Source of the DNA: Sinimarinibacterium flocculans
Lineage (GTDB): Bacteria > Pseudomonadota > Gammaproteobacteria > Nevskiales > Nevskiaceae
Assembly: GCF_003201205.1 (NCBI RefSeq)
Contig: NZ_QICN01000008.1
Coordinates: 52,207 to 116,206, forward strand
Direction: 5' to 3'
DNA: 64,000 nucleotides
Position numbers and translations under genes: made by a program. Shown one piece after another: positions 51,480 to 59,836 of this stretch (the first letter of the stretch is position 1; each line of letters starts with the position of its first letter). The notes below the pieces were generated by a model. That model saw nothing but the letters and a program-made list of their open reading frames with translations, had not been told where the DNA came from and ran no database searches.

Positions 51480-54400
51480 TCAGAGCTGGTTGCAGGAGAG
51501 TTCGCCGAGTTCATACGACGTCTCCAGGATATCGATGCGATCGGCGGTCTCGCCGTTCTCGTCCACCGGCTTCTTCGGTGGATCCTTCGGTTGCGTGGCG
51601 AGATTGAGGACCGTGTCGATCTCGTCGACCTCCTCCTGCGACGGCGTCGGCAGCGGTGTCGGCGTGGGAGCCGGGGTCGGCGTCGCTGTCGGCAGCGGTG
51701 TCGGTGTAGGCGCCGGGGTCGGCGTTGCGGTCGGCAGCGGCGTCGGCGTGGGAGCCGGGGTCGGCGTCGCGGTCGGCAGCGGTGTCGGCGTGGGAGCCGG
51801 GGTCGGTGTCGCGGTCGGCAGCGGCGTCGGCGTGGGCGCCGGGGTTGGTGTCGCGGTCGGCAGCGGCGTCGGCGTGGGTGCCGGGGTTGCGGTCGGCAGC
51901 GGCGTCGGCGTGGGCGCCGGGGTCGGGGTTGCGGTCGGCAGCGGTGTCGGCGTGGGCGCCGGGGTCGGTGTCGCGGTCGGCAGCGGCGTCGGTGTGGGCG
52001 CCGGGGTCGGTGTCGCGGTTGGCGACGGCGTCGGTGTGGCCGTTGGCGTCGGAGTCGGGGTCGCCGTTGGCGTTGGCGTTGGCGTTGGCGTTGGCGTTGG
52101 CGTTGGCGTTGGCGTTGGCGTTGGCGTTGGCGTAGGTGTCGGCGTGGGCTCCAGGACGTTGCCGCCGAGCACGATCACTTCGCCGGTCGTGCTCACGTTG
52201 TCGAGGTTGGCGATGTCGCCACCGGTGAGCAGCACGTAGTTCGCCGAACCCAGATCCTTCTCGACCGTGTCGAGTCCCGGTGCCAGATCGATCGTGCCGG
52301 CGAAACCGGTGCCGCCGAGAAGATAGGTGAGCACGTCCGTCGTCAGGGCACCGCCGAGTGCCGCGAGCAACAGCGGGTCACTGTCGCCGTAAGGGCGGAA
52401 GTTGAAAGCCTGCAGCGGGCTGCCGATGCTGCCGGCCGATGCCGCAGGGGCCTGGATGAACAGGTATCCGCCCTCGATCGTCAGGCTGCCGAGTTGTACG
52501 GCATTCGGCGAGACGAAGCTGGCGTTGGCGATCGAGGGCAGCGGCGAGGGCAGCGGATTGGCGCGAGCATCACCCGGGAAATTGTTGGCCGCGTCGACGA
52601 AGTCCGGGTCCTGCCCCCGAATGGCGCTGCCGCTGCCGATCTCCAGGTTCGCGCGGGACAGGTCGATGGTGTTGGCGAAGACGTCGATCGCGCCGCTGCG
52701 GATCTGCGTATCGGCAGCATTGGCGACGACGGCGCCGCCGGCAAAGATCTCGATGGTCGTGGCATCGGTCCCCGGCGGGCCGATCAGTGCGCGGTCGATC
52801 AGGACATCACCCTCGAAGCTGTCGATGATCAAGGCCGTCGACGGCGGGTCGGACTCGGCGTCGACGTTGACCTCGAGGTCCAGCCCCTGACCGACGCCGG
52901 CGCCGCGGATATCGTTCTGCGCGGCGAGCGCCAGGAGGGTCTGGTAGCCCAGGCCGGTTCCGCCGACACGCACCGGTCCGACCGCGATGTTGCCGCCACC
53001 GGCGAAGAACTGCTCTCCGCTCTCGTCGAAGAAGTTCGCGGTGTTGCCGATCTCGATACTGGCGGTGCCGCCGCTGCCGGTGAAGCCGCCGTCGTCGAGC
53101 GTCACGTCGATGGAGCCGATGGTGACGTCGCCGCCGGTGGCATTGGCGTCGTAGTAGGCGTTGCCGATGGCCGCGACCCCTGCATTGAGATAGCCGATGC
53201 CGACGGTGTCGATCGCGATGGAGGTCAGCGCGCCCGCCGAGATGCCGTCGCGGGCATAGAGCTCGATGCAGGCGCTGGAGTAGAAGTTGCAGTACTCGCT
53301 GCCCTTGTCGGCACTCTCGTACTCGCCGTAGTCGGAGGTCCAGGTGGCGCTGACGTTCTGCACATTCAGTGCGCCGCCGCGTGCTTCCAGCAGCACGGCG
53401 CCGTTGCTCGCCGTGACGTCGAGCAGCGTCAGGTCGCCAAGCCCGCTGTAGATCTTGATGCTGCCGGCCATGAGGGCCTGCAGCGGAATGTCGAGACTCA
53501 TGGCGGCATAGATGCCCAGCGGCCCCATGAGATCCGGCAGCAGGTTGGCGATGCTGATGCCGCCGCCACCGGCATACAGGTCGAGCTGCTGCGTGGCGGC
53601 CAGGGTCGAGAAGCTCAGGTCTCCGACCTCGCTGCTGACCGACAGGTAGTCGGCTGCCAGCGTCGCAGCCGGCAGCCCGACCTGGCCCTGTGCGGCGATG
53701 TCGAGCGTGCCGAGCATCGGCGTGCTGTATCCGGAGAGCAGGATGTCGCCGCCGCCGCTGTAACTGTCGCTGCCGGTCTCCGCGTCGTAGGCGTATGCCG
53801 CCAAGTTCTGCAGATAGGCATAGAGTTCGACGTAGGCCGGCGAGAAGCCGTTGTCCGCGAAGACGATGTCCACGTCGCCGAGGTCGACGGCGCCACCGGC
53901 GCCGATGGGCGAGCCGGAGGCGAAGGCGCTGCCGTTGACGTCGAGCCCGGCGGTCAGGAACTGGTCGGGCGCATCGGCCTGCAGCAGCAGGTTGACGGAA
54001 GTCGTCTGGACGCCGTCGCGGGCATAGAGCAGCACGCCCTGGTTGCAGTAGTAGTAGCAGCCGCCGTAGGGACTTGAGTCGCCGGTCAGGGTGGCGCTGA
54101 AGTTGCCGCCGATGATGCGTCCGCCAAAGGCAACGACCTCGATGCTGCCGTCCAGGCTCGTGAGGTCGGAGAGGACCAGATCGCCGGCGCCGCTGTAGAT
54201 CTGCAGGGTCTGTGCCGTCAAGGACGGGGCACTCGACAGCGGCAGGCCGCCATCGACGAAGCTCAGGGTGCCGCCGGCGTCCACGCGCAGGAAATCGAGC
54301 GTGGTGGTCTGCAGGCCGATCTCGACGTCCGCCGAACCCGGTAGCGGCTGTCCGGTACCGGCATCGGTGAGCGCCGTCGACATCAGCGTCACCGCAGCGT

Positions 54401-56501
54401 TTGTCCCCATCGTGATCGAGGGCAGCCGGATGTCGCCCCCGGCGAAAGTGCCGACGTCCAGCTCGCTGTAGGTCTCGAGACCGCTGGCGACGACACGCAC
54501 GTCGGCGGCTTCGACGTCGCCGTCGGCCTGGATCTGCAGGGTGGCGATGGCGTCCTCGGTGCCGCTCAGCTTGCCGCCGGGGGATGCGCCGGCCTCGAGC
54601 AGGCCGACGGCCGGCAGGGCATTCGCCTCGACCGTGACGCCGTTGACGATGGTCACGGCGCCGCCACTGCGGCGACCGTCCGCGGAGTAGGGCCCGCCCG
54701 TCGGCGTGCTGTCGATCCGTGCCTGGCTGTTGGCGCTCACACCGTTGAAGCTGCCGGCCTCGGTCGAGACGCTGATGCGGTCGATGGTGATGTCGCGCGA
54801 GGCGCCCGGGTCCGGCGCCGACTCGTCGACCGGCACGTTGTTGGCCATCACGTAGACGCTGGCGTAGAGCGCGTCGCCGTCAAATTCCGCCGTGTCGCTG
54901 GCCTGCAGGTGTCCGGCGGTGACGCCGTCGTGCGCGATCAGCTCGATCTGCGTCGCACTCACGTCGCCCACGCGGATGTCGCCGCCCGACAGCACGCTCA
55001 CGGTACCGCTGTCGCCGGCGTTGAGTGTCGCCGCAACGTCGACGTCGCCGCTGGTGCGGTTGTCCAGGCGGATGTCGCCGTCGATGTTGAAGACGTCGTC
55101 GGCACCGAGGATGTAGATGCCGGGCGCATTCGGTTCGCCGGGAACCGGCTCGACGCAGTCGGGATTGCAGCCGGCGATCACCTGGAGGCTGCCGCCATAG
55201 TCCGGACTGGCGCCAAAGCCGTTCAGCTCGTTGTCGGCGATGTCTTCGAAGGTGACCGAGTTCTCGCCCTGGATCGTGATCGTCGAGCCGAAGGCGTTCT
55301 GCAGCATCGCCTCGAGCGTGCTGTAGGTGAGATTGCCGCCGCCGTAGTCCTCGCTGACGACGAAGTCGTAGGGATCGATCAGCAGCGCACCGCCGCGACC
55401 GAGGTCCACCGTGTCCTGGATCAGCACGTCGTGACCCGAGAGCTCGGCGAAGCCGCCGAGTCCGCCCGGTCCGTCGCCCGCGACGCTGATGCCGGCGCCC
55501 TGCGCGTACACCAGGCGATCGCCGGCAACCGCGGTGACCTCGCCGCCATTGCGCCCGCGCGCCGCGGCGAGTGATCCGCTTGCGATCTCGATGCTTGCAT
55601 CCGACCGCAGGCCGATCGTGCCGCCGTCGGATGCGGCGCTCGAGGCGTCGAGCGTGCCGTGCTGTTCGAGGTTGCCGCCGTTGGCTACCAGCCAGATCTC
55701 GCCGCCGCGTTCCTCGACCGCGTCGGCGCGGACGACGCCGCGGTTGTTGACGACGGTGCCGAGCAGATCACGCGCCACCTGAGCATGCATCACGACGGCG
55801 CCGCCGCGCGCGACGATCTCGCCGAGGTTCTCGATGCCGGCTGCGTCCGACGCCGCCGCGGCATCGACGGTGTAGGACACCAGGCCCTCGGCATCGGTGT
55901 GCAGCGTCAGGCGACTGCCGGCCGCGAGCACGACGTCGCCCGCCGGTGCCTCGATCGTGCCGCTGTTGTGGATATGGTCGGCCGACAGTACGACGAAGCC
56001 GCCGTCGCCGCTGCGGATCTCGCCTTCGTTGCGGATGCCGGCGGTGCTGTCGCCGGCGAAGACGTAGCGGCCCTCGGCAAAGTCGCGGTCGCTGATGTCC
56101 TGCGTGCTGGTCATCAGCGCCCCGACGTCGACGCGCGCCCCCGCGCCGAACAGGATGCCCTGCGGGTTGATCAGGAACACGCGCCCGTTGGCCGTCAGGT
56201 CGCCTAGAATCTCCGACGGCAGCTGACCGATGACGCGGTTGAGCACGGCCGCTGACGCCGACGGCTGATTGAACACGACGTACTCGTTGGCGCCGATCGA
56301 GAAGCTCTGCCAGTTGATGATGGCGGCGTCGGACTGCTGGTCGATGACCAGCGCGCCCGGGTCCGGGCTCGTCAGGTTGACCTGGCCGTGGACGATCTCG
56401 GCGCCGCTCGGTCCGCCGCTGGCGGCCGCCGGCGCCAGCAGGCTCGCCAGCGCGGCACGGCGCAAGGCCAGGGCAATCGGCGTCAGGCGTGGCGTGGTCA
56501 T
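51480..56501 (-). CDS. large two-partner-secretion exoprotein (TpsA, filamentous haemagglutinin-like)
   Basis: 1673 aa. Signal peptide, then the TPS/haemagglutination domain (about 33-290: [40 protein letters not shown], and [16 protein letters not shown], the NPNGI-type motif with Gln). The middle 1100 residues are beta-helix-like repeats rich in Gly, Asp and Ser. Then a Pro/Thr stalk of about 165 residues (TPTP repeats, nine APTPTPLPT units) and a C-terminal tail ending SCNQL. Start at 56501 gives [16 protein letters not shown]. The longer frame to 56741 overlaps tpsB. Probably a surface fibre/adhesin. Confidence 0.92.
51645..52003 (-). repeat. 42-bp minisatellite coding the tpsA stalk
   Basis: Nine copies of the peptide APTPTPLPT separated by ATPTP, a 14-residue (42-bp) unit. 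One spacer is ATP, making a 36-bp unit, so every length change remains in frame. Copies differ by a few silent changes (ggagcc/ggcgcc, gtgtc/gcgtc). Confidence 0.9.
52065..52130 (-). repeat. eleven tandem copies of hexamer CGTTGG (Thr-Pro codons)
   Basis: A perfect (CGTTGG)11 tract; on the coding strand each unit is ACG-CCA in frame. Uniform codon use contrasts with the varied Pro/Thr codons around it, a sign of recent slippage expansion. Confidence 0.95.
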
Positions 56502-56511
56502 GACGGGCTCC

Positions 56512-58146
56512 TCAGAAGCTGGCGGCGAGCGAGCCGAACAGGCGGCCGGAGTCGCGGCCGTCGCTGGCCTCGCGGCTGCCGAGCGGGTAGGCCCAGTCGA
56601 CGCGCAGCGACAGGGGGTTGCGCGTGATGTCGAAACCGAGTCCGGCACTCGACAGCGAGCCGGCATCTGGCGCGTCGACCGAGAAGGCCTCGCCGCCGTC
56701 GAAGAACAGCCGGCTGCGCAAGGCCACGCCGGACACGGCACTCAGGTGCTGAAGGCTGACGCTGCCGAAATAGCCGTAGTCACCGCGCACTTCGGCGCTC
56801 GGGAAGCCGCGCACGCTGCCCGGTCCGCCCAGCGAGAACTTCTCGGTGTCAGCCAGCGGGTCGGGTGACCAGGTGCCCGCAGCCCGCACATAGAGCTGCA
56901 GGCTGCGCGCGAGCGGCATCAGGTGCTGCACGTCCAGATCCCACTTCAGGCGCTGGTTGCCCTCGACTTCGCCGTCGGCGAAGTCTTCAATCGACAGCGA
57001 GTCGAAATTCGATGACACGGAGCTGCCTACCTGCGTCACGGCGGCGTTGTCGTGCGTACGAGTGTAGGCAAGCCCCGCGCGCAGCAGTGTGATCGAGGTC
57101 TGGTTGAAGATCAGGCCGCTGAAATCGGCATTGGACAGCGTGCGGGTGGCACCGACCGAGAGCATCAGCCGCTGGCGGGCGTCCAGCAGCAGCGGGTGTT
57201 CCACGGTGAGCTCGCCGTTGCGGCTGCGACCGCCCACCGGCGAGCCGTCGATTTCGAACTCGGCGTGGCTGTAGCCGATGCGCACGCGCGTGCCGCGGTA
57301 ATTCAGAGGTACCGAGTACAGCACGGACCCGTAGCGCGTCAGTGCCTCCTCGGACACGAGGCCGGTGAGCTGCAGCTGATCCTCGACCCGCAGCGGGTTG
57401 TTGAGTGTCGCCGAGGCAGTCAGGCGGATCTCGCCGACGCTTTCCCGGCCGAAGTTGTCGAGGGTCAGGCCGCCCTCGATCGGGCGTTCGTCGAGGCTCA
57501 CCAGCACGTCGCTGTCACCCGGCGCCGCGCCGGGTCGTATCGTGGCCCGGGCCTCGAGTCCGGGGAGCGCGCTGAGGGCACGCAATCCCTGCTGCAGGGA
57601 ATCGGCGCGATAGATCTCGCGGGGCCGGAAAGCACCGAGATAACGGCGGACATGCTCCGGCTGGTAGCGTTCGGCACCTTCGATCTGCACGCTGGCGACG
57701 CGGCCTTCCGACACCTGCAGCAGCACCACGCCGTCGCTGACCTTCTGCGGCGGCAGGTTGACCGTTGCCAGCGTGTAGCCGCGCTCGCTGTAGAAGGCGG
57801 CGATGCGATCCGCCGCCTCGTACAGCTCGCCCAGCGTCACGCGGCGGCCGAGGTAATCCTTGAGCTGCGCCGACAGGTGTTGCTCAGAGAACAGGGCATG
57901 GCCGGTGAACTCGAACCGCTGCACGACGAGCGTGCCTTCGCCCGGCGCCAGCACCGGCACGACGCGGGGTTGCTGGGGTGCTGAAATGGCGGGTTCCGAG
58001 GACTGTGGCGTCGCCAGCCCGGGCGAGGGCTCCAGCGTATTGCCCAGTTCGCCAGGCGCTACCGTCTGCGCGTGTACGACCATGCAGGCCGACAACCCGA
58101 AGGCCGCCGCGACCGTCTGCCTGAGCTCCCTTCGAGACCTGCGCAT
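56512..58146 (-). CDS. TpsB outer-membrane transporter (ShlB/FhaC/HecB family)
   Basis: 544 aa Omp85-superfamily pore that secretes TpsA. Signal peptide [20 protein letters not shown], a proline-rich plug linker, two POTRA domains (about 75-235; [20 protein letters not shown] and [20 protein letters not shown]), then a 16-strand barrel with the conserved loop motif [14 protein letters not shown] (VRGY type). The last residue is Phe, as for BamA substrates. GGGGA site 6 nt before ATG 58146. tpsA starts 10 bp after its stop. Confidence 0.95.
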
Positions 58147-58198
58147 CTGTTTCCCCTGGCGATCGGCTGACCCTGCGCAACCGACGGAAAGCCCGGGC

Positions 58199-58204
58199 AC
58201 TATA
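58199..58204 (-). promoter_or_regulatory. possible -10 box of the tpsB operon
   Basis: Minus-strand TATAGT about 53 bp before the tpsB ATG; no good -35 hexamer. Confidence 0.35.
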
Positions 58205-58330
58205 GCTCAGCGTTTCGAAAGGGATCGCGACAGCCATCACGTCCGCGCCCTAGCCCGGTGCCGGTCTGGCGCGAGCCCGGGACGTGCCGACAGGCCGGTC
58301 GAGCGGAACCCCATCTGGTAAAGTAGGTTG

Positions 58331-58398
58331 GAAGCATCGCGCGAGAGACCACCTTCAGTGGTGGCGCCGAAGGCGCAAACCGCCCGGAATCGCTCAGG
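58331..58398 (+). promoter_or_regulatory. extra partial glycine aptamer I (68-nt exact duplicate)
   Basis: Identical over all 68 nt to 58534-58601: from GAAGCATCGCGCGAGAGACC through the GGCGCCGAAGGCGCAAAC core to GGAATCGCTCAGG. After that the sequence diverges, so the 3' side of the aptamer (CAAACGGAGCGCGATGT, which closes P1) is missing. Both copies are preceded by GGTAAA(G/C)TA. Confidence 0.9.
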
Positions 58399-58533
58399 GT
58401 GAGCCGGGGCCTTCGTGAAGCAAAGCTTCACGCCGGCGAACGCCCGGCCATGGATGGCCGGGCCGGGGCTGGATCGAAGCGGTGAAGTCGCGCCAAGGAC
58501 GGCCGGGGTAAACTAAAGCTGTAGTCGTTAAAC
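58399..58533 (+). repeat. REP-like hairpin segment between the aptamer copies
   Basis: Contains two perfect hairpins: CGTGAAGC/GCTTCACG (58414-58432, loop AAA) and GCCCGGCCAT/ATGGCCGGGC (58442-58463, 2-nt loop). No ORF and no U-runs. It looks like an interspersed palindromic repeat unit, but no second copy occurs in this window. Confidence 0.5.
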
Positions 58534-58716
58534 GAAGCATCGCGCGAGAGACCACCTTCAGTGGTGGCGCCGAAGGCGCAAACCGCCCGGAATCGCTCAG
58601 GCAAACGGAGCGCGATGTCGCAGCAAAACTCTGGAGAGCGTCCGCGCTTGCGCGGACCACCGACGAGGCAGAGGCGGTCCGCCGCTTTCGAACTTTCAGG
58701 TTCCCGGACAGAGGGG
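58534..58716 (+). ncRNA. tandem glycine riboswitch
   Basis: Two adjacent glycine aptamers upstream of the glycine-cleavage operon. Aptamer I (58534-58620): GAGAGACC, the CGCCGAAGGCGCAAA core, GGAATCGCTCAGG and CAAACGGA; P1 forms between GCATCGCGC and GCGCGATGT. Linker GCAAAA. Aptamer II (58629-58716): CTCTGGAGAGCG, a P2/P3 region, AACTTTCAGGTTCCCGGACA, then GAGGGG. This parallels the B. subtilis gcvT riboswitch segment by segment. Glycine binding normally switches the gcv genes on. Confidence 0.93.
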
Positions 58717-58753
58717 CGGTTCGTACCGAAGTCACTTCCATCGGCAGAACCGC
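58716..58753 (+). promoter_or_regulatory. riboswitch expression platform abutting gcvT AUG
   Basis: GCGGTTC (58716-58722) can pair with GAACCGC (58747-58753), the seven bases directly before the ATG, masking the initiation region. Alternative inner pairing CGGT/ACCG (58717-58728) would free it. G58716 is shared with the end of aptamer II, linking ligand binding to this hairpin. No U-run, so translational control is favoured. Confidence 0.55.
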
Positions 58754-59836
58754 ATGCTCAAGCACACCGCGCTGCACCCCGAACACGTCCGCCTCGGTGC
58801 CCGGCTGGTCGATTTCGCCGGTTGGGACATGCCGATCCAGTACGCTTCCCAGCTCGACGAGCATCACGCCGTGCGCCTGAGCGCCGGCATGTTCGACGTG
58901 GCGCACATGTCCGCCGTCGACCTGCACGGCGCCCGGGTGCGTGAGTTCCTGCGTCGCCTGCTGGCCAACGACGTGGCCAAGCTGACAGTCGGCGGCAAGG
59001 CCCTCTACACCTGCATGCTGCGCGACGACGGCGGCGTGATGGACGACCTGATCGTGTATTTCATCGACGAGTCGTGGTTCCGGCTCGTCGTCAACGCCGG
59101 CACGACGGACAAGGACCTGGCCTGGATCCGCCGGCATGCCGCGGATTTCGGCGTCGATGTCCATCATCGCGACGATCTGGGCATCCTGGCGGTGCAGGGA
59201 CCCGAGGCGCGGGCAAAGGTCGAGCCGCTGCTGCCGGCCGCGCTGCGCGCAGCGGCCGGGACACTGGAGAACTTCCAGGCTGCCGTCGATGGCGACGTTT
59301 TCGTTGCGCGCACCGGCTACACCGGCGAGGACGGTTTCGAGCTGATGCTCCCGCACGCCGCCCTGATCGCGCTGTGGAAACAGTTGCTGGACGCCGGCGT
59401 GAAGCCCTGCGGGCTGGGCGCGCGCGACACCCTGCGTCTCGAGGCCGGCATGAACCTGTACGGCCAGGACATGGATGAATCCACGCACCCGCTCGAATCC
59501 GGGCTGGGCTGGACCGTGGCTTGGACACCGGAGGATCGCGATTTCATCGGCCGTACGGCGATCGCGCCGCTGCGTGGCGCGTCGCCGCGCAAGCTGGTCG
59601 GGCTGGTGATCGAGGGGCGCGGCATCGCCCGTGCACACATGAAGCTGCGCTTTGCCAACGGCGCTGCCGGCGAGACCACCAGCGGCGGCTTCGCGCCGAC
59701 GATGAAGCAATCCATTGCGTTGGCCCGCGTCGACGCGACGGCGGAGGGCGCCTGCGAGATCGAGATCCGTGGTCAGTGGGTGGCGGCGCGGGTGGTGAAG
59801 CCGCCGTTCGTGCGCCACGGCAAGGTTCTGGTTTGA
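58754..59836 (+). CDS. gcvT: glycine cleavage system T protein (aminomethyltransferase)
   Basis: Transfers the methylene unit from the lipoyl arm of H protein to tetrahydrofolate, releasing ammonia. 360 aa: RLVDFAGWDMPIQYASQLDE and SAGMFDVAHMSAVDLHG at the N terminus (folate cup), YTGEDGFELMLP and GLGARDTLRLEAGMNLYGQD in the middle, and a C-terminal barrel domain. ATG 58754 is the family start. First gene of gcvT-H-PA-PB under the glycine riboswitch. Confidence 0.97.
   Translation: MLKHTALHPEHVRLGARLVDFAGWDMPIQYASQLDEHHAVRLSAGMFDVAHMSAVDLHGARVREFLRRLLANDVAKLTVGGKALYTCMLRDDGGVMDDLIVYFIDESWFRLVVNAGTTDKDLAWIRRHAADFGVDVHHRDDLGILAVQGPEARAKVEPLLPAALRAAAGTLENFQAAVDGDVFVARTGYTGEDGFELMLPHAALIALWKQLLDAGVKPCGLGARDTLRLEAGMNLYGQDMDESTHPLESGLGWTVAWTPEDRDFIGRTAIAPLRGASPRKLVGLVIEGRGIARAHMKLRFANGAAGETTSGGFAPTMKQSIALARVDATAEGACEIEIRGQWVAARVVKPPFVRHGKVLV

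Follow-up and report, generated by a model that had tools for sequence, protein, structure and literature searches.

The window analyzed here is a 64,000-nucleotide stretch of the genome of Sinimarinibacterium flocculans (contig NZ_QICN01000008.1, positions 52,207 to 116,206). Ahead of its glycine cleavage genes lies a tandem glycine riboswitch, preceded on the same strand by a half copy of its first aptamer and by a 105-bp hairpin element that we named X. The gene order downstream is gcvT, gcvH, and two gcvP halves, names that we presume from reading the translations of the open reading frames (ORFs); the best tblastn relatives of gcvT, by record name, were Stenotrophobium rhamnosiphilum, Hydrocarboniphaga, and Nevskia-type sequences, at no more than 78% identity. 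G000 denotes the genome that holds the window, and all other G and L labels denote other sampled genomes and loci. The features of the locus are as follows.

58319-58324, + strand: -10-like TAAAGT just 5' of the left copy (by eye)
58331-58398, + strand: left, truncated target copy, the 5' half of aptamer I, ending in CTCAGG (68/68 identity; RF00504, 33.6 bits)
58399-58503, + strand: element X, starting with GTGAG and ending with GGACGGC (model R1, 93.8 bits, match 58397-58503; 42 matches in its own genome)
58399-58441, + strand: X hairpin 1, GTGAG ... GAAC, outer pairs covarying (alignment A2, RNAalifold)
58442-58463, + strand: X hairpin 2, GCCCGGCC-ATGGAT-GGCCGGGC (alignment A2, RNAalifold)
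58492-58503, + strand: X hairpin 3, GCC-AAGGAC-GGC, the 3' end of X (alignment A2, RNAalifold)
58504-58533, + strand: 30-nt stretch from X to the right copy, with a -10-like TAAACT at 58509-58514 (by eye)
58534-58601, + strand: right target copy, inside the complete aptamer I (68/68 identity)
58533-58622, + strand: glycine aptamer I, complete (RF00504, 67.8 bits)
58621-58721, + strand: glycine aptamer II (approximate; converted from contig coordinates G000:C8:110827-110927; RF00504, 44.1 bits)
58754-59836, + strand: gcvT, putative aminomethyltransferase of glycine cleavage (ORF; name from the translation)

Half-aptamers and element X at the gcv locus

A sequence-only reading of this locus had described an exact 68-nt repeat, 203 bp apart, whose downstream copy continues into a complete tandem riboswitch. 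Both points were borne out: 58331 to 58398 and 58534 to 58601 are identical, and only the second copy runs on into the full tandem riboswitch ahead of gcvT. In the glycine-model search that had been proposed for both copies (cmscan, RF00504, gathering score 32), the complete aptamer I was recovered with ease, while the upstream copy (58330 to 58425) barely passed. The accompanying statement that the upstream copy lacks its 3' closing strand holds for the native strand, although the model finds a poor substitute in X, the letters of which serve as P1 partner with 6 of 8 pairs standard and two not; the conserved junction after CTCAGG (CAAAnGGA) is likewise replaced by X letters. The stretch from 58533 to 58721 is an ordinary tandem glycine riboswitch (RF00504/RF03166), whereas the extra half upstream stops where X starts and goes with X, not with the riboswitch family. 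A consensus promoter scan found no promoter, including at the TAAACT and TAAAGT stretches; by eye, the former would place the RNA start 3' of the half copy.

Among 61 genomes, an extra RF00504 match 5' of the tandem riboswitch was found in seven (G000, G001, G003, G006, G007, G008, and G024). The sequence-only reading had asked whether the extra copy is absent from close relatives, and the answer is divided: at the sensitivity of the RF00504 search it is absent from 5 of the 10 other genomes of the genus (G002, G004, G005, G009, and G010), of which G002, G005, G009, and G010 keep the riboswitch, and present in the remaining five. In a tree of seven gene pieces, several nodes of which are weak, the layout is shared by G000 and a clade of five species; the sister of that clade, G010, is without it. 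Within each of the six species of the genus that carry both copies (G000, G001, G003, G006, G007, and G008), left and right show 0 to 1 nt of difference, yet copies from different species of the genus are 4 to 9 nt apart (0 to 2 nt for G006 versus G007). G024 has three target copies and two X copies, its outer target copy differing by 3 nt from two identical inner ones. In G013, of the same genus as G024, X lies 11 nt further upstream in the same aptamer, after CCGCCCGG, and has a half copy of its own (55/55 nt duplicated); the aptamer has therefore been hit at least twice.

Half copy plus X scored above the Rfam cut-off in seven species (33.6 to 41.1 bits) and below it in G013 (21.8 bits). 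We read these scores as those of an intact P2/P3 core scoring alone. That such a remnant still passes the cut-off is a warning for RNA surveys.

Three further observations concern these riboswitches. A weak X match (23.1 bits) lies directly after aptamer II of the gcv riboswitch in G012 (L059:1156-1264). By eye, a GACCACC...GGTGGC-like hairpin stands 5' of the left copy in G003 (L041), G006 (L045), and G007 (L048) and may be an older, decayed half-aptamer copy. Other glycine riboswitch clusters, in L047 (G006:C5:246215-246788) and L050 (G007:C2:44724-45297), combine a tandem pair with a third aptamer match some 280 nt away.

Structure and distribution of element X

The 105 bp that follow the first copy (58399 to 58503) proved to be a dispersed hairpin element with covarying pairs. 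When 58331 to 58533 was searched against the own genome, the locus and the second copy came back together with 45 weaker matches, which were confined to query positions 65 to 178. X ends at position 173 and none of the 45 passes 178, so that the tail between X and the right copy was not carried over from another X of this genome. Nineteen copies (17 from the own genome and one each from G024 and G008) aligned on a common plan, in which GTGAG and GAAC stand on either side of a hairpin whose arms vary; next come a hairpin of the form GCCCGGCC-ANGGAT-GGCCGGGC, a spacer, and a last hairpin, GCC-ANGGAN-GGC. In the RNAalifold structure of this alignment, 7 of 17 pairs had two-sided changes that keep the pair; one pair is CG in 10 copies, GC in 7, and AU in 2. 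The loops of hairpins 2 and 3 (58450 to 58455 and 58495 to 58500) both read ANGGAN. This is the pattern of CsrA/RsmA binding sites, and dozens of X copies could, by their sequence, serve as such sites. A long variant of about 150 to 160 bp, with extra sequence after the start of hairpin 2, was seen in L085/L127, L092, L123, and L126.

Model R1 found 42 X copies in the own genome (E <= 0.01). At E <= 1e-10, X was present in 18 of 41 genomes and 10 of 20 genera of related families (own genome included), counts that are probably too low because this search used stricter filters. Within the genus the count at E 1e-10 was zero in G002, G004, G005, and G009; remnants or shortened forms of X were seen by eye 5' of mtnC in the first three of these. 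In a class-wide sample, X occurred in 19 of 274 genomes and 17 of 222 genera, again counting its own.

X does not correspond to a known Rfam RNA: at seven X loci searched against Rfam 15 (E up to 5), no family rose above its cut-off, and a single CRISPR-DR9 match overlapping the X copy in L080 stayed below threshold (21.1 bits, cut-off 45, E 0.87). Carriage by phages or plasmids was set aside as well. An exact 26-letter pattern of the X core had no match in viral contigs; the X of the window had no phage match and, among plasmids, shared only a 34-nt piece with one Xanthomonas sacchari record; and of the copies at tRNA loci, one was without a phage match and another without a plasmid match. 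No description of X, or of the tRNA D-loop repeats reported below, was found in the open PMC literature, in which subscription papers are mostly not included.

Truncated repeats and empty sites at unrelated genes

The arrangement at gcv, in which the left flank of X is a truncated copy of its right flank, recurs elsewhere. A repeat whose left copy stops at the start of X was found at 8 of 41 tested own-genome copies (of 42). In other genomes, 7 of 42 tested copies (of 43, one being too short; three gcv loci in this set were chosen on purpose) had such a repeat with a score of at least 30, and 19 of the 56 copies tested in G010, G003, G008, and G001 (of 58, two having short flanks; two further contig-end loci had been excluded beforehand) also had such a repeat. 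The sets were combined, with overlaps and the weakest own-genome copies removed and the gcv loci of G007, G024, and G013 added as known cases, into 121 loci, 119 of them testable. Thirty-six of the 119 reached a repeat score of at least 30; of these, 32 have a left copy that stops at X, with the same base offset relative to X in 24. Of 4,000 controls pairing mismatched left and right flanks, which may include orthologous loci, 114 reached the score and 19 also ended at X. Without the six gcv loci, the scar remains in 26 of 113.

A terminal GG is found in 23 of the 32 duplicated targets. Duplications can be long and near perfect, as at mutL (109/109), ddl (90/90), and gcv of G008 (92/93). By our reading of translations, genes hit at their start include mutL, ddl, mtnC, and those for a HAD-type hydrolase (HAD) and a metallo-hydrolase, and genes hit at their 3' end include typA, nadE, and leuS; other targets are a terminator and, in L117, a tRNA-like stretch that ARAGORN did not call as a tRNA. 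Some targets are reiterated. Three target copies with two X copies occur at mtnC of G010, as at gcv of G024, and X-Y-X-Y arrays with spacers common to both X copies occur at mutL and nadE of G010 and at ddl of G003. In the mutL leaders of G001 (L291), G008 (L336), and G010 (L265), some 20 nt (GCTCGACGACTTCGCCGG) could, judged by eye, form a leader hairpin with the mutL codons that flank the site of X insertion, to which they are complementary.

An orthologue search in 11 genomes, with added stretches, yielded the regions of seven loci, with coverage that is uneven across genomes. At ddl, G000, G001, G002, G008, G009, and G010 have a single gene start after the upstream gene and no X, while X lies inside a duplicated ddl start in G006 and G007 and in an array in G003; this region was not seen in G004 and G005. 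At typA, X occupies two different points (in G003 and G010), and the other nine genomes are empty. The HAD site is filled in G000, filled and decayed in G003, occupied by X without a clear repeat in G008, and empty in eight genomes. When the left flank, taken through the last base of the left copy, was joined to the sequence after the right copy, the empty site was restored, the junction being spanned in 18 of 18 comparisons. Eleven of the 18 alignments were gap-free (6 of 6 at ddl, 5 of 6 at typA); the gap positions numbered 5 at typA (G003 versus G001), 11 to 42 at HAD, and 2 to 23 at nadE. Identities and mismatches were 129 and 15 for ddl of G006 versus G008, 103 and 11 for typA of G003 versus G007, and 85 and 19 for typA of G010 versus G007.

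X also occurs at tRNA genes of distant Gammaproteobacteria. The 16 loci examined were chosen by hand and include arrays and pairs, so that proportions among them are biased. In 10 (L401 to L407 and L410 to L412), the left copy is the 5' part of a tRNA that ends at or near the GG of the D-loop; ARAGORN called a complete tRNA in 8 of these (L401, L403 to L407, L410, and L412), and in the other two the contig ends first. At L399, the scar lies at the 3' end of a tRNA-Arg gene. Sixteen of the 25 X copies at these loci passed the repeat test, one more missing it by a base, and 7 of the 16 have a right copy that starts 0 nt after X, with a duplication of 37 to 42 nt. Between the aptamer target CGCTCAGG and the tRNA D-arm GCTCAGTTGG there is a resemblance that may explain the hits in the glycine riboswitch. 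In G141, head-to-head, REPIN-like pairs of X, 6 nt apart, occur at three places; in the two pairs examined, L398 (G141:C1:753022-753254) and L400 (G141:C1:1675345-1675578), no X passed the repeat test.

Origin of the half-aptamer

The half-aptamer is probably (at roughly 0.77, in our estimate) a target duplication left by a mobile hairpin element, X, and not a third sensor, with the unit of X and target homogenized afterward. As for a mobile element, filled and empty orthologous sites were found for X (at ddl, typA, HAD, and nadE), together with target duplication (32/119 and 16/25), and the scar recurs at unrelated genes and tRNAs and at a second insertion point within the aptamer. X would be a small non-autonomous element of about 105 bp with three hairpins and a near-constant 5' end, GTGAG. 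Its insertion in aptamer I, directly behind CTCAGG, would have duplicated the DNA on the left side of that point, so that the right copy kept the full tandem riboswitch and the left copy remained as a truncated half-aptamer. Insertion may proceed through a staggered cut, usually after GG on one strand and, less strictly placed, some 20 to 110 bp upstream on the other. The unit of X and target may then expand and contract in tandem, as the three-copy arrays suggest, and the near-identity of both copies within a species points to such homogenization. The apparent two-and-a-half-aptamer riboswitch would in that case be an ordinary riboswitch with a mobile-element scar beside it, and X the more interesting part: it gives core genes altered leaders and interrupts tRNA genes, yet leaves an intact copy behind. 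The question of mechanism is open to test, since filled and empty sites occur in closely related species.

Several results weigh against this interpretation. A recognizable duplication is missing in 87 of the 119 X copies; where present, it ranges from 18 to 109 bp, unlike the products of most transposases; and 0 to 76 nt of unclear origin, or more where an array intervenes, separate X from the right copy. At every gene that could be named, the intact copy lies 3' of X, a bias for which the insertion geometry accounts in part, though not clearly in full. (Judging the intact copy by ORF length was useless, since long spurious ORFs abound in this G+C-rich DNA.) Left copies track the right copy within species, at gcv and, in several species, at mtnC; simple decay of a scar does not fit this, and homogenization must be added. 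Finally, no machinery was found in searches for two protein families, RVT_1 and Y1_Tnp (25 genomes each; IS1634-type transposases were not searched for). RVT_1, a reverse transcriptase (RT) family, is present in the X-rich G000, G010, G011, and G013 (23, 27, 14, and 11 X copies in that comparison) but missing in the X-bearing G001, G003, G006, G007, G008, and G012 (9, 14, 7, 6, 14, and 10), and two genomes without X at E 1e-10, G009 and G014, also have it. Y1_Tnp had no match in the X-rich G003, G010, G011, and G013, one sub-threshold match in G000, and matches in G001, G006, G007, G008, and G012. With results mixed or negative, RT and Y1 transposase were set aside as the machinery of X. So far as the two models can tell, X needs neither of them, and there remains a partial association of X with RT-bearing genomes.

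In a rather improbable version of the mobile-element interpretation, X is a bacterial SINE-like (short interspersed nuclear element-like) retroelement, the RNA of which has a precise 5' end and is reverse-transcribed by a host or passing RT where the DNA is nicked behind GG. It would prefer structured RNA genes (tRNA D-loops, the riboswitch, the terminator) and gene ends and leave duplications of about 20 to 110 bp, of the kind made by target-primed reverse transcription. If it were true, X, spread as it is over Gammaproteobacteria, would be a general means by which new leaders and partial copies of tRNAs and riboswitches arise.

Among known systems, miniature inverted-repeat transposable elements (MITEs) and other small non-autonomous bacterial repeats (see PMC2229807) resemble X in their size of about 100 bp, dozens of copies, lack of a gene, and target duplication; X differs in its long, variable duplications and its covarying, RNA-like hairpins. 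Terminal inverted repeats of the MITE kind were not seen in the window copy, where no inverted pair of at least 12 nt joins 58399 with 58503. Repetitive extragenic palindromes (REPs) and their RAYT transposases (see PMC2817692) compare with X as dispersed palindromic repeats, also with regard to the head-to-head pairs in G141. Against a REP/RAYT assignment stands the absence of Y1_Tnp matches from the X-rich G003, G010, G011, and G013. We know of no REPs that leave long direct repeats and, more generally, of no mechanism for the long, variable target duplications of X. A precedent for such duplications is provided by IS1549 and IS1634 (IS1634 family), for which long and variable target duplications of 8 to 514 bp are reported, with no mechanism proposed (PMC2266710); these are full insertion sequences with a transposase, which X does not have.

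The most serious rival to the mobile-element interpretation, though in our view an unlikely one, is a local tandem duplication: an X already present 5' of the riboswitch would have promoted replication slippage at its hairpins, via GG microhomology, which duplicated X together with the DNA behind it, and the left X would later have been lost. The X-Y-X-Y arrays with shared spacers fit this scenario, as do the frequent GG at the target end, the microhomology being the GG before GTGAG, and it accounts for the intact copy 3' of X. Random slippage should scatter the end of the left copy, however, and that end is fixed relative to X in 24 of 32 cases; moreover, left copies at ddl (G006 and G007), typA (G003 and G010), and HAD (G000) keep their native upstream junction with no X before it, and relatives have empty sites there.

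The sequence-only reading had instead proposed a regulatory third half-aptamer that competes for P1, a claim that our results do not support: the copy is one case of a scar pattern seen at 32 of 119 X copies, and in G013 the aptamer is cut 11 nt earlier. In its broader form, a functional half-aptamer would draw its P1 strand perhaps from X and would be selected for P1 competition, on a longer RNA, or for other tuning of the glycine switch, which we consider very improbable. In its favor are the likeness of left and right copies within six species of one genus, set against the divergence between those species, and the scores above the Rfam cut-off in seven species. The likeness is found at mtnC too, which is not a riboswitch, and the P1 substitute is of poor and varying quality, with standard pairs numbering 6 of 8 in the window, 5 of 8 in G008, and 4 of 8 in G003. 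G013 is cut elsewhere in the aptamer and falls below the cut-off, the outer copy in G024 has diverged from the inner ones, and G002, G005, G009, and G010 have the riboswitch without the copy. The minimum-energy fold of 58320 to 58760 was uninformative on P1 competition. An assembly artefact, to which only the break of G003 contigs at the two copies (its layout is split over two contig ends) could point, has a negligible chance, since the layout lies inside contigs of G000, G001, G006, G007, G008, G013, and G024 with species-specific sequence; the copy is biological, as the sequence-only reading had supposed.

Elsewhere in the window, on the - strand, an ORF for a large haemagglutinin-type exoprotein with long PT-rich repeats (51480 to 56741) adjoins one for a ShlB-type transporter (56512 to 58200), which together, from their translations, suggest a two-partner secretion system.
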